Assembly: GCA_030429735.1 (NCBI GenBank)
Contig: JAUIET010000001.1
Span: 310,001-374,000, forward strand
Direction of reading: 5' to 3'
DNA: 64,000 bases
Source: Gammaproteobacteria bacterium
GTDB lineage: Bacteria; Pseudomonadota; Gammaproteobacteria; Pseudomonadales; JAUIET01
The notes under the pieces were generated by a model that saw only the letters and a program-made list of their open reading frames with translations, ran no database searches and had not been told where the DNA came from. A program made the position numbers and the translations under genes. Each line of letters starts with the position of its first letter. Positions within the stretch are counted from its first letter, which is position 1. Shown piece by piece: positions 36,534 to 42,851 of the stretch.

Positions 36534-37010
36534 ATGAGTAAGAAATCAAAGAAACCGAGCAATAATATTGCTCAGAACAAGAAGGCTCGCCACGAATACG
36601 CCATTGAAGAGCGATTTGAAGCCGGTTTGGTGTTGACCGGCTGGGAAGTAAAAGCACTGCGCGCCGGTAAAGCCCAGCTGGTGGACAGCTATGTATTGAT
36701 CAAAGACGGCGAGGTCTGGCTGCTCGGCGCCCAGATCGAACCCCTGCAAACCGCCAGCAGTCATGTTGAAACCGACCCCAAACGAACCCGCAAACTACTG
36801 CTCAACGCCAGAGAAATTGCCCGAATCCGTAACGCAACCGAACGCGACGGCTACACCTGCATTGCCACGTCCCTGTTCTGGAAGAAACACCTGGTCAAAT
36901 GCGAAATTGCCATCGGCAAAGGCAAGAAAGCACACGATAAACGCGCCGCCGACAAACAGCGCGACTGGGACCGCGAAAAACAACGCGTAGTGCGCACCAC
37001 CAACCGCTAA
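36534..37010 (+). CDS. smpB: SsrA-binding protein SmpB
   Basis: [40 protein letters not shown]. Confidence 0.98.
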
Positions 37011-37115
37011 AACCCAACGGAACTATACCCGCTCCTCACCTGTCAAATAAGCTACAATAGGGTGTGGCCGCAATAGCAGCCATGTTTCGAGGAGGGCTTG
37101 CTCTTCGGTATCGGT

Positions 37116-37470
37116 AAAACGATTCTGAGGAGTGCAGTGCAAGGCGCTTTCTAAACGAGGGAGGGAGTGCACATAAAGTGCATGACCGACTTAGCGCAGT
37201 AAGCGACGAAGCAATGCACTTCCAGAACGGTTAAAACGATTCTGAGGAGTGCAGTGCAAGGCGCTTTTCGATCGAAGGAGGGAGTGCACATAAAGTGCAT
37301 GACCGACTGAGAACGAAAAGCAACGCCGCAATGCGCCCTCAGGATGGTTAAAACGATTCTGAGGAGTGCAGTGCAAGGCGCTTTCTAAACGAGGGAGGGA
37401 GTGCACATAAAGTGCATGACCGACCGAGAGCAGAAAGCAACGCCGCAATGCGCCCTCAGAATCGTTTTAA
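37116..37470. repeat. Three tandem ~117-bp hairpin-forming repeats
   Basis: Units start at 37116, 37233 and 37350 with AAAACGATTCTGAGGAGTGCAGTGCAAGGCGCTTT; the last unit ends in the 17-bp inverted complement (37348-37364 vs 37454-37470). Confidence 0.97.
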
Positions 37471-38086
37471 GGGGGCGATCTGGATTCGACGTGGGTTACT
37501 GACCTATATGATGCATGCCGAGATGACAGCCAATCTCGTTAATCCAAAGCTGTAATTGAATAGTCGCAAACGACAATTCGTACGCTTTAGCAGCTTAAAA
37601 CCCTGCTAACAGTTGCCACTGGATGCCAGTAAACGGGAAGCAACTGTCATATAGAACTGGATCGCAAGCAAGGCTCGCTTGAGGCCGCGCTGTTAAAAAC
37701 TCATCAAGATCGCAACTTACGTCCTGCCCGTCGGGCTGTAAGAAGCTAAATTAATCGACGGACCTAAGCATGTAGAGTCTATAGCAACGGACTGACGGAC
37801 GCGGGTTCGATTAACACAATGGTCGCCACGGGGAGTGATCCCCGATGGAAAAGAGGGCTCATACGGTGAACGCTAAGGGGAAACCTATGCCAACGCCGTC
37901 CGGTGAAGGGGAAACCCGTAAGCCGGCTAGAGACTCATAGGCTTCTAACGGGGAAACCCTATGAAGTACTAGGGTAGGCAGAAGTAGCACACTGCTTACA
38001 ACACGCTCTCCCCTGCTGAGAAGCAGGTGAAGGAATAGTCCAGCCCATAGCGAAAGCTATGGATCACTGTCCCGCCGCCTCCACCA
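37471..38086 (+). ncRNA. ssrA: Intron-containing tmRNA gene; exon 1 37471-37811, exon 2 38070-38086
   Basis: 5' GGGGGCGATCTGGATTCGAC pairs with 3' CGCCTCC-ACCA; tag GCAAACGACAATTCGTACGCTTTAGCAGCTTAA (ANDNSYALAA*, 37566-37598); T-arm GCGGGTTCGAT/TCCCGC is split by the intron; encoded CCA; spliced length ~358 nt. Confidence 0.96.
37812..38069 (+). mobile_element. Group I intron in the tmRNA T-loop
   Basis: Exon 1 ends in U, intron ends in G; IGS GUCG pairs with exon CGAU (terminal U.G wobble); GACU/AGUC P7-like strands (GAGACUC ... AAUAGUCC); GNRA-like hairpins including terminal CATAGC-GAAA-GCTATG; precise excision restores GGGTTCGATTCCC. Confidence 0.92.
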
Positions 38087-38115: not shown

Positions 38116-38132
38116 GCCGTTTAGAGGTGAGA

Positions 38133-38830
<698 letters not shown>

Positions 38831-39200: not shown

Positions 39201-39227
39201 CTTGATAATTTCTATTCTGGCCTTACT
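39201..39227 (+). promoter_or_regulatory. Putative promoter upstream of yfdX-like gene
   Basis: CTTGATA-N14-CTTACT; same layout as upstream of the hsp20 gene at 42210. Confidence 0.35.
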
Positions 39228-39293
39228 GGTGAAGTATGAGCCGGTTCTCCAAGACCGGAATATACAACCTATTCGATACAGGAGATCAGACCA

Positions 39294-40214
39294 ATGAAAC
39301 TATTGGCTTTATTAAAATCTCTGGGATTGGCGACAGCTTGCAGTCTGTTTGTGCTTAGCATGCCTTCATGGGCAGAATCCGAGCCAGCAGACAACGCTGT
39401 GTCAAACTCAGTTCAAACCACTGCAGACGAAACCGCCTCTGCTGAAGTGGATTCAGAGGCGAATCAGCAAGCTGCTGAGCGACGCAAGCAAATTCTTAAG
39501 GAGGCTGTCGACGCGTTAGCGCAAAGCAACAAAGCGTTAAAGGCTCTGGATGAAGGTAAGACGGAAGACGCGCTGAATGCGCTGGCATTGGCCACAGGCA
39601 AGCTGGAGCTCATAGTCGCACGTGACCCGGAACTGGCGCTCGCGCCTACTGACGTGCGGATCGCAAGACATGACGTCATTGCTTCATCAGATGCGTTAAA
39701 AGCAGCGATCAAAGAGGCCGAAAACGCGCTCGATGATGGTGACATTCAACAAGCTCGCTATCTACTTAGCCGACTGGGAAGTGAACTCATCATTACAGTT
39801 GAGAACTTGCCACTGGCGACCTATCCCGATGCGATCAAGGCCATCAGCCCACTGATTGACGATGGTCAAATCGAGGAAGCCAAAGCACAATTGCAAGCGG
39901 CCTTGAGCACCGTGGTGTTGGTTGATCATGTGGTTCCCCTACCCATGATCCGCGCCGAAGCGCTACTGGCTAATGCTGAGAAGCTGACAGAGAAAGACGA
40001 CCGCACGGAAGACGAAAATGTCCAGCTCACTGATGACCTGGCTGCTGCTAGAGATCAACTCGAAATGGCCCAATTGCTTGGCTATGCGGATAAAAAATCG
40101 ATCAAAGAGCTGAAAAAGCAGATCGAATCCATCGAGGAGAAGACCGAAGACGGCCAATCCGGCAAAGGATTTTTCGACAAGCTGAAAGATTCTTTCTCCA
40201 AGGCCTTCGATTAA
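39294..40214 (+). CDS. YfdX family secreted protein
   Basis: Signal peptide ending MPSWAE; YfdX-like helical domain. Confidence 0.8.
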   Translation: MKLLALLKSLGLATACSLFVLSMPSWAESEPADNAVSNSVQTTADETASAEVDSEANQQAAERRKQILKEAVDALAQSNKALKALDEGKTEDALNALALATGKLELIVARDPELALAPTDVRIARHDVIASSDALKAAIKEAENALDDGDIQQARYLLSRLGSELIITVENLPLATYPDAIKAISPLIDDGQIEEAKAQLQAALSTVVLVDHVVPLPMIRAEALLANAEKLTEKDDRTEDENVQLTDDLAAARDQLEMAQLLGYADKKSIKELKKQIESIEEKTEDGQSGKGFFDKLKDSFSKAFD

Positions 40215-40337
40215 TCGAGCGAGCCATGCACAGCCCCGCATTTGCAGCGGGGCATTGTGCTCGGTTAGCCAAACAGCAGGCTTGGCGCACATCAGAAGAC
40301 CAGCCCAAGCCGCCACTTATACTAAGGAGACGTTTCC

Positions 40338-40913
40338 ATGTCTAATACACCATCCACCAAAGTACTATGGGGCGCATTGATACTCGTGTTTGGAATTGCA
40401 ATCGCACTTGCATTTTATAGCTGGCAGCTGCGTTCAGAATTGCAGTCCGCTGAACAGAAGATTGCTGAACAAGGTCGTCCATTTCCTTTGTTGACCGATC
40501 CATGGCTCAGCAAGTCCGACCCCTTTGACGCATTTACTGATATGCGCAGTCGAATTGACGACATGATGGAATCCTTTTCGAATGACAAGTTTTTCAATAG
40601 CCCGAGCTTTGACCTGTTTGCATTCGACGTACCCGAGATTTCTATGGATGAATCTAAGACCGCGTATGTGATCACAATGGACGTGCCCAAAGGTCAGGCG
40701 GTGGAAATAAACACAAAACTTGAGGATCAACGGCTCTCGCTCACCGGCGTGGTGAAGGACTCCAAATCAAATGCACGGGGTCAGCAGAGTATCGTTTCAT
40801 CCAGCGTTCGCCAATTCACTCGCAGTTTTTACTTTCCGTTGGCAGTGGATGAAGCGGCAATGACGGTTGAACAGAGTGATGACAATATCACCATCACCGT
40901 GCCTAAATCATAA
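40338..40913 (+). CDS. Hsp20/alpha-crystallin family protein with N-terminal membrane anchor
   Basis: N-terminal TM helix VLWGALILVFGIAIALAFYSW followed by an alpha-crystallin domain. Confidence 0.82.
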   Translation: MSNTPSTKVLWGALILVFGIAIALAFYSWQLRSELQSAEQKIAEQGRPFPLLTDPWLSKSDPFDAFTDMRSRIDDMMESFSNDKFFNSPSFDLFAFDVPEISMDESKTAYVITMDVPKGQAVEINTKLEDQRLSLTGVVKDSKSNARGQQSIVSSSVRQFTRSFYFPLAVDEAAMTVEQSDDNITITVPKS

Positions 40914-41200
40914 GCGAACACTTCGACATAAGGTTTTATAGACTCTGTTATTTGATTCATGGAGTCTCGGGTCGTTGTGAAGTCAGGGGATTCGACTGGC
41001 TTTCTGCAGCGATCAATCCTATCGCGCAGCGGCCACACCAAATCTTATTTCCATATCGATATAAAGGCATATTTTTCTAAGAAAAAAATATTCTATCGGT
41101 GGCGCTTCTGATGCTTGAAAATCGAAATTCGAAATCCTATAACTTTCCCATACAACACATTGATTACCTGGTTTGCCAACGATACTAAGGAGGTTTCGCG

Positions 41201-42067
41201 ATGGGCACATCATTTAATCACACTCTCTCGCCGACCAGTGCTGGCCTCAGCCAATACCTTCAATCTGTGTTTGGCGCGCCTGAGCTTACCGAAGAGCAGG
41301 AACAGCAGCTGTTTACCCGGTACAGGATTCACCATGATCTGGACGCGGTAAAGGAACTCATATTGTCGCACTTGCGTTACGTCGTCTACATCAGCCGACA
41401 ATATGCGGGTTATGGCATGCCGGAGGAAGATCTGATTCAGGAGGGCAATGTAGGCTTGATGAAGTCGATCAAGCATTTTGATCCCTCGCGGGGACTTCGC
41501 CTGCGCCACTACGCTGCGTACTGGATAAAAGCGGAAATTTTGGAATTTATCGTGCGCCGCTGGCGTATGGTCAAAGTTGCGACCACCAAAGAAAAACGCA
41601 AATTGTTCTTCAGGTTACGCCAGGCCAAAAAACGCCTGGCCTGGCTAAGCGCCGAAGAAACTGACGCGATAGCCAATGAACTCGGCGTTGATGCTGATTG
41701 CGTACAAGAAATGGATAGCCACATGTACAGCCAAGACAGCTCCGTGTTAACCACGGATGTTGACGAAGAATATGAGGAGAACAGCCTGATTATCGAGGAC
41801 GATTCCTGGAGCCCTGAGCACTCCGTCGCCCACGATGAAATTGAGCGCCTGACCTATGATGGATTGGTTGAATCACTCAAGTCTCTGGACTACCGATCGC
41901 GTGAAATAGTTGAACAACGCTGGCTGGCCGTCAAAAAAGAGACCTTGGAAGCATTGGCAGATCGATTTGAAATTTCAGCCGAGCGTGTGCGACAAATAGA
42001 GAAACAGGCTCTGAACAAAATGCGCGCGCACTTTGATGTCGAAGCCATGCAGTTGGTGTCGGAATGA
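41201..42067 (+). CDS. RNA polymerase sigma-32 (RpoH)-like sigma factor
   Basis: RpoH-box-like KRKLFFRLRQAKKRLAW; region 2 DLIQEGNVGLMKSIKHFDPSRGLRLRHYAAYWIKAEI; region 4.2 LADRFEISAERVRQIEKQALNKMR. Confidence 0.92.
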   Translation: MGTSFNHTLSPTSAGLSQYLQSVFGAPELTEEQEQQLFTRYRIHHDLDAVKELILSHLRYVVYISRQYAGYGMPEEDLIQEGNVGLMKSIKHFDPSRGLRLRHYAAYWIKAEILEFIVRRWRMVKVATTKEKRKLFFRLRQAKKRLAWLSAEETDAIANELGVDADCVQEMDSHMYSQDSSVLTTDVDEEYEENSLIIEDDSWSPEHSVAHDEIERLTYDGLVESLKSLDYRSREIVEQRWLAVKKETLEALADRFEISAERVRQIEKQALNKMRAHFDVEAMQLVSE

Positions 42068-42124
42068 TCCACCGCAGCCTGTGCTGGCGCCACGCAAAAA
42101 AATCGAAAAAATATTTGGCAGACT

Positions 42125-42151
42125 CTTGAAATTGAAACAGGTGAACTTATT
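42125..42151 (+). promoter_or_regulatory. Putative promoter upstream of hsp20
   Basis: CTTGAAA-N14-CTTATT. Confidence 0.35.
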
Positions 42152-42209
42152 AAATCTATGAACACTGTGTCTTTCGCTTAATTGGCAAATTATTTGGAGG
42201 AATACAACC

Positions 42210-42656
42210 ATGTCATTAGCACGTTTCGAACCGATTCGCGTGGGTCAGTTGCAGAACGACATTAATCGCTTGTTCAGCAATTGGGAAGACTCTCAATACA
42301 GCAGTGGCGCAACCGCCGGATGGATGCCCAGCACCGACATTCACGAATACGGTGACCGTTTCGAATTGTTTGTTGATCTGCCAGGCGTCAACGTAGACGA
42401 TGTGGCATTAACACTGGATAACGGTGTGCTGTCCATTACCGGCGAGCGTAAAGAGCTTTCGGTTAATACTGATGAAAAGCAGGTCCAACGGCGCAGTGAG
42501 CGCGGCCTAGGCCAATTCCACCGCCGTTTTATACTCCCTGACACTGTGGATGCCGACACGGTCAATGCGAAAACTGAAAATGGTGTGTTGTCGATCGTTA
42601 TCCATAAACAGGCCAAGGCTCAGCCTCGTCGCATCGAGATCTCTGCCGCTGCCTAA
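42210..42656 (+). CDS. Hsp20/alpha-crystallin small heat shock protein
   Basis: 148 aa; FVDLPGVNVDDVALTLDNGVLSITGERK and C-terminal ENGVLSIVIHK. Confidence 0.93.
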   Translation: MSLARFEPIRVGQLQNDINRLFSNWEDSQYSSGATAGWMPSTDIHEYGDRFELFVDLPGVNVDDVALTLDNGVLSITGERKELSVNTDEKQVQRRSERGLGQFHRRFILPDTVDADTVNAKTENGVLSIVIHKQAKAQPRRIEISAAA

Positions 42657-42722: not shown

Positions 42723-42851
42723 AATGGCGCCAGCGTTTCACGCTTGCTGAAGTCAAGACGGTAAAAACGAAGCGCAAAAAAAAACGCGCAAAGTGGCACA
42801 ATAGCCGCAGTACATATGGGACTTAACAGCAGCTTGGACGCTGGCGCCATT
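42723..42851. repeat. 129-bp imperfect palindrome with 14-bp perfect terminal arms
   Basis: AATGGCGCCAGCGT (42723-42736) / ACGCTGGCGCCATT (42838-42851); inner TGCTGAAGTC / GACTTaaCAGCA. Confidence 0.85.

Follow-up and report, generated by a model that had tools for sequence, protein, structure and literature searches.

Second RpoH sigma factors with a promoter preference of their own are well known in alphaproteobacteria. For RpoH1 of S. meliloti, the promoters are reported as CTTGAA-N15-16-CCTATAT (PMC4843759). In the open complex of E. coli sigma32, residue H107 acts as a wedge between positions −11 and −12 of the promoter, and F104 lines the pocket of A−11 (PMC10216364). Extra RpoH genes can also travel with stress genes, as on the plasmid of Phenylobacterium zucineum, where an RpoH occurs with chaperones (PMC2529317). 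YfdX and Hsp20 proteins are cargo of the tLST, or locus of heat resistance, and a periplasmic role is stated for tLST YfdX (PMC8290217). The locus described here, in a stretch of 64,000 nt of a gammaproteobacterial genome (the window), combines YfdX and Hsp20 genes with an RpoH-type sigma factor. No open-access paper on such an RpoH–YfdX–Hsp20 cassette was found, which is weak evidence of novelty.

The four genes and their surroundings

The cassette occupies positions 39294–42656, beside smpB–ssrA, and consists of four intact open reading frames, all on the plus strand. The initial annotation had read them as YfdX, a membrane-anchored Hsp20, an RpoH-like sigma factor and a soluble Hsp20, and the Pfam and NCBIfam matches agree. 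The first gene, yfdX (39294..40214), encodes 306 aa with an N terminus resembling a signal peptide and belongs to the YfdX family (PF10938, 6.8e-34, 117.4 bits vs. a cut-off of 26.6). The second (40338..40913, 191 aa) belongs to the Hsp20/alpha-crystallin family (PF00011, 34.6 bits, 2.1e-8, cut-off 20.8) and carries an N-terminal membrane anchor, a single strongly hydrophobic segment at residues 9–27 (mean hydropathy 2.47); the anchored protein may lie on either side of the membrane. They are followed by the sigma factor, a second and divergent RpoH copy (41201..42067, 288 aa), and by a soluble member of the same Hsp20 family, sHsp20 (42210..42656, 148 aa; PF00011, 74.5 bits, 7.9e-21, cut-off 20.8), which is 44% identical to its closest paralogue in the genome. 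No clear RNA thermometer was found in the leaders: the folds of the sigma, sHsp20, and anchored Hsp20 leaders lie within 1.4 sd of shuffled sequences, and that of yfdX has a z of −2.3. Directly past the cassette, a perfect 14-nt inverted repeat (AATGGCGCCAGCGT, at 42723–42736 and 42838–42851) surrounds 101 nt.

Upstream, smpB (36534..37010, plus strand) is conserved in the sister genome, G001, the only other genome of the genus. The tmRNA gene ssrA (37479..38086, plus strand) is split in its T-loop by a group I intron of ∼258 nt (∼37812–38069, same strand; boundaries inferred from reconstitution of the T-loop), the T-loop being the location of all known tmRNA introns (PMC11915505). Because of this intron, ARAGORN misses ssrA and the Rfam match stops at 37813. 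Between smpB and ssrA (37090–37470), there are three imperfect direct repeats of ∼130 bp, of which the genome has one further, partial copy at C10:6642-6711. A LAGLIDADG-type ORF (38127..38519, plus strand; weak Pfam match, just under the cut-off) begins 40 nt past the 3′ end of the tmRNA, outside the intron, of which it is possibly a free-standing partner; its codon usage is atypical (z −2.6). It overlaps on the minus strand an hsdM (N6_Mtase) fragment (38479..38787), the remnant of a type I restriction-modification methylase. The cassette follows from 39294 and, as first annotated, does lie downstream of ssrA. In G001, smpB is present with an uninterrupted tmRNA (tag ANDNSYALAA) and a single rpoH; the cassette is absent, and synteny with the window breaks just downstream of ssrA, so that this cassette is not a constant of the locus among relatives. 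The hsdM remnant and the differing neighbors in G001 make the site look like a place of turnover.

A second RpoH and its relatives

The window sigma keeps regions 2 and 4 intact (Sigma70_r2/r4, PF04542/PF04545, above cut-off at 2e-16 and 1.4e-13). It scores above the cut-off of the NCBIfam sigma-32 subfamily NF005143 (332.6 bits vs. 241) and below that of the RpoH equivalog TIGR02392 (315.9 bits vs. 323.1), and is therefore RpoH-type but divergent. Region 4.2, which reads the −35 element, is conserved, including its recognition helix. There are, in all, 33 departures at residues kept in at least 90% of RpoHs. The RpoH box reads KRKLFFRLR instead of QRKLFFNLR, with Q132K and N138R, at positions where Q is kept in 50/50 and N in 48/50 other RpoHs; F104 and H107, each kept in 49/50, are also replaced. 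Residue 107 aligns with residue 107 of E. coli (match to E. coli RpoH 8hkc, E 3.3e-74). One change in the homeostatic control region (PMC4823717), A50V, was considered as a basis and set aside, as it occurs in the window sigma only and is absent from the other cassettes described below.

The suggestion that the cassette brings an RpoH of its own led to the question of a canonical rpoH elsewhere in the genome (G000). Such a gene exists at G000:C24:231324-232121, in the order ftsY-ftsE-ftsX-rpoH, and its product is only 45% identical to the cassette sigma. The latter has no ftsY-ftsE-ftsX upstream, the canonical place being occupied by the copy on C24, and it is not the sole RpoH of its host.

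A search through 85,462 genomes with the single sigma sequence returned no relative, and ∼1,600 whole genomes gave no match above 52% identity; the best of these matches, where the surroundings were inspected, were canonical rpoHs. Homologues of the anchored Hsp20 occur in 13 of 394 genomes of the order, in no case beside a sigma, and none of the 19 YfdX loci of the class adjoins one. When named genomes were scanned with an alignment of YfdX, 80 loci emerged, 56 with an Hsp20 and three with an RpoH. In Woeseiaceae OFTM327 (a bin; L168) and UBA1847 (L158), the RpoH gene is divergent from a row sHsp20-Hsp20-yfdX, with a DegP-like protease between them in L158; a 6.5-kb stretch of Ww577 (L169) contains sHsp20, two DegP-like proteases, RpoH, and yfdX. 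Identities to the window proteins are 64%, 64%, and 50% for sHsp20 and 55%, 61%, and 51% for YfdX (L168, L158, and L169, respectively). The sHsp20 proteins of L168 and L158 are thus much closer to that of the window than is the nearest paralogue of its own genome (44%). The second Hsp20 of L158 and L168 has no evident N-terminal anchor. The proposed unit yfdX-hsp20-rpoH-hsp20 is thus kept as a gene set, while its order and strands are rearranged. Each of these three hosts (G1105, G1106, G1107) has in addition a canonical-type rpoH, flanked by an FtsX-like ORF and 61%–62% identical to the canonical copy of G000, so that a second RpoH stands alongside the canonical one in 4/4 cassette hosts, in a sample of four cassettes of which two are closely related and three come from metagenome bins.

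The four cassette sigmas have the same kinds of replacement: Y/Y/Y/Y at position 104, Y/Y/Y/L at 107 (the Leu in L169), K/R/K/K at 132, and R/K/K/K at 138. They form one clade (support 93/94 in the full tree), which includes neither the canonical RpoHs of the same hosts nor the plasmid-borne ones; support is 96/96 when L169 and further long branches are omitted, and 96/98 after deletion of residues 100–142, the promoter-contacting columns. The long branches of the window sigma (2.93 vs. a median of 0.24) and of L169 call for caution in reading this tree. Defined here by the clade together with Y104, a non-His residue at 107, and K/R at 132 and 138, the cassette subfamily includes the window sigma. 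An early tree had paired the window sigma with L081 (G005:C121:1260-2087), a join flagged as possible long-branch attraction that vanished with better sampling. L081 is a further divergent second RpoH of the same order, with the canonical FAVHW motif and a reverse-transcriptase-like ORF on one side.

Putative promoters of the cassette genes

Putative promoters precede the sigma gene (41114..41142, plus strand; CTTGAAA-N15-CCTATAA) and the sHsp20 gene (42125..42152, plus strand; CTTGAAA-N14-CTTATTA), both of the form CTTGAAN-N14/15-CYTAT. The sigma-gene promoter also fits sigma70 (TTGAAA-N17-TATAAC). The yfdX and anchored Hsp20 genes are at background; the weak candidate before yfdX (39201..39228, plus strand; CTTGATA-N14-CTTACTG) does not rise above it. 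Across the 5.03 Mb of G000, cassette-type sites are found only in front of the sigma and sHsp20 genes, a count that speaks for privacy and not for significance, since these very sites served to define the pattern.

In L158, L168, and L169, the sequence CTTGAA(A/G/T), 14 or 15 nt, and CCTAT or CTTAT stands upstream of all Hsp20 and yfdX genes, as well as of one DegP gene in L158 and one in L169. Counted in the same way at all YfdX loci, CTTGAAN-N13..15-CYTAT precedes 8/8 Hsp20 or yfdX genes of the RpoH cassettes, 8/108 genes of non-tLST YfdX loci without RpoH (several of these eight from Magnetococcales), and 0/84 genes of tLST loci; shuffled sequences give it at a rate of 0.0002. The enrichment in RpoH cassettes over other loci (Fisher p = 2e-8) overstates the evidence, because the eight genes come from three loci only, two of them related. 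A search of 1.56 Mb from the Woeseiaceae host gives three sites for CTTGAA[AGT]-N14/15-CCTAT, all in the cassette locus, and one of them precedes a DUF6491 gene that was not used in defining the motif. That gene (L168:3533-3994) adjoins the cassette rpoH and possibly belongs to the module as well.

Canonical heat-shock genes of the same genomes have C or A in place of the T: dnaK, grpE, cbpA, an hsp20 pair, and rpoH in G000, and dnaK and grpE in the Woeseiaceae host (G1106). The hsp20 pair, the second of the genome (L077:5687-6660, contig C9), is divergent from cbpA and serves as a control for the cassette; its promoter is of canonical type, CTTGAAA-N13-CTCAATAT. In L158 and L169, the cassette rpoH itself has a promoter of the CCAT/CCCAT type. 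Canonical RpoHs may tolerate CYTAT, since eight genes without a nearby RpoH carry it. At the place of the wedge, alphaproteobacterial RpoHs have TYA-x-WW, that is, Y104/W107, and the promoters reported for RpoH1 of S. meliloti have CCTATAT; a replaced wedge residue is therefore paired with T in the −10 element in two lineages. The change at residue 107 may be the cause of the −10 preference.

Proposed regulation and comparison with known systems

The cassette is probably a small, locally wired heat-shock regulon built on a dedicated sigma–promoter module. The homologous cassettes, with a common sigma subfamily and promoter type, strengthen at the sequence level the earlier ideas of an own RpoH-like sigma and of a self-regulating module. 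The cassette sigma would be active and would read the promoters described above, with heat or envelope damage as the likely trigger. It keeps the reading head for the −35 element (CTTGAAA) and, altered at the −11/−12 wedge (F104Y, H107Y), would serve a −10 element C(C/T)TAT where the host has CCCCAT. Protein-damaging stress would raise its level, in the window through the sigma gene's own promoter; in L158 and L169, canonical RpoH may switch on the cassette rpoH through its CCAT/CCCAT-type promoter. The cassette sigma would then transcribe its own gene and sHsp20 in the window, with Hsp20, YfdX, and DegP as further targets in the relatives. Protection would be separate from the canonical RpoH regulon, with sHsp20 acting in the cytosol and YfdX and the anchored Hsp20 at the envelope.

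The main alternative to such a regulon is that the cassette genes belong to the ordinary heat-shock or sigma70 regulon of the host, with a second RpoH that overlaps the canonical one and residue changes that reflect drift. The very long branch of the window sigma would fit drift, the sigma promoter does fit sigma70, and CYTAT also precedes Hsp20 genes at loci without a local RpoH. This reading is rather unlikely, given that the same residue changes recur in four sigmas whose clade persists without those columns, that regions 2 and 4 are intact, that the promoter type is found at 8/8 vs. 8/108 genes, and that canonical genes of the same genomes lack the T. Another alternative is a decaying cassette with a sigma that has lost its function, for which one can cite the 33 departures from conserved residues and the missing motif at two of the four genes. 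Such decay is most improbable with four intact reading frames of host-like codon usage, a conserved recognition helix in region 4.2, and changes that are non-random and common to the cassette sigmas.

The initial annotation had also proposed a proteostasis island at ssrA, which would amount to a recently acquired mobile element, a minimal tLST. The absence of the cassette from G001, which diverges just past ssrA, the hsdM remnant between ssrA and yfdX, the 50% identity of YfdX to tLST YfdX2, and the plasmid-borne rpoH genes beside Clp ATPase, MscS, and Tni genes or Hsp20 genes would all suit a mobile origin. The island claim is nevertheless unsupported and a recent acquisition very improbable: there is no integrase or transposase near the cassette and no duplicate of the tmRNA 3′ end (att repeat) within the window, codon usage of the cassette is host-like (z −1.0 to 0.3, within about 1 sd of host genes), ClpK, HdeD, Trx, and KefB are absent, and the plasmid search gave no match of at least 60% identity for the sigma or YfdX and none whatever for the anchored Hsp20. 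Despite the apparent turnover at this site, nothing looks like a recent island; a past transfer is quite possible, because mobile elements with an extra RpoH exist.

Beyond local wiring, we tentatively propose, as a possibility short of probable, an orthogonal sigma–promoter pair undescribed before. A gammaproteobacterial second-RpoH subfamily, changed at residue 107 (mostly to an aromatic one), would have come independently to prefer a −10 element like that of alphaproteobacteria, C(C/T)TAT, and would drive just the adjacent chaperone genes; triggering by canonical RpoH in some hosts would make a two-tier heat-shock relay. If so, the heat-shock response of some gammaproteobacteria would consist of two sigma circuits, separated by one −10 base and one wedge residue, and YfdX/Hsp20 chaperone cargo could carry its own control. 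The locus would then offer a clean test of a change in promoter specificity in an alternative sigma (H107 and −12) and a compact candidate for an orthogonal sigma–promoter pair.

The likeness to the tLST lies in the YfdX and Hsp20 cargo, the window YfdX being 49.7% identical to tLST YfdX2 and 47% to YfdX1. The tLST example examined has ClpK, FtsH, HdeD, Trx, and KefB and no sigma, whereas the tLST core (dna-shsp20-clpK with hdeD, trx, kefB, and mobile flanks) is absent around the window cassette, as judged from the ORF list. The plasmid-borne RpoHs (Phenylobacterium zucineum plasmid, Salmonella p58011, Sphingobium p1) likewise associate an extra RpoH with stress genes, but they belong to other clades, with the canonical FAVHW or the alphaproteobacterial TYAxWW motif, and have other cargo. 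On a Salmonella IncHI2 plasmid (L139, CP049309.1:213198-214055), the neighbors of RpoH are genes for a Clp ATPase and a mechanosensitive channel, together with transposition genes of Tni type; plasmid pAW1.7_1 from E. coli AW1.7 carries a closely related RpoH (L138).

With the canonical gammaproteobacterial RpoH, the cassette sigma has in common the domain architecture, region 4.2, and the −35 element CTTGAAA, along with an RpoH box that is altered at two residues. It differs as a second copy, not placed by ftsX and below the TIGR02392 cut-off, with F104Y, H107Y, Q132K, and N138R and a putative −10 element C(C/T)TAT in place of CCCCAT. The alphaproteobacterial RpoH1/RpoH2 (RpoHI/RpoHII) come near in that they, too, are second RpoHs that prefer promoters of their own and have an aromatic residue 107. 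They form a separate clade, however, the plasmid-borne alphaproteobacterial copies being mostly 34%–40% identical, and their regulons are genome-wide, whereas that of the cassette looks local.
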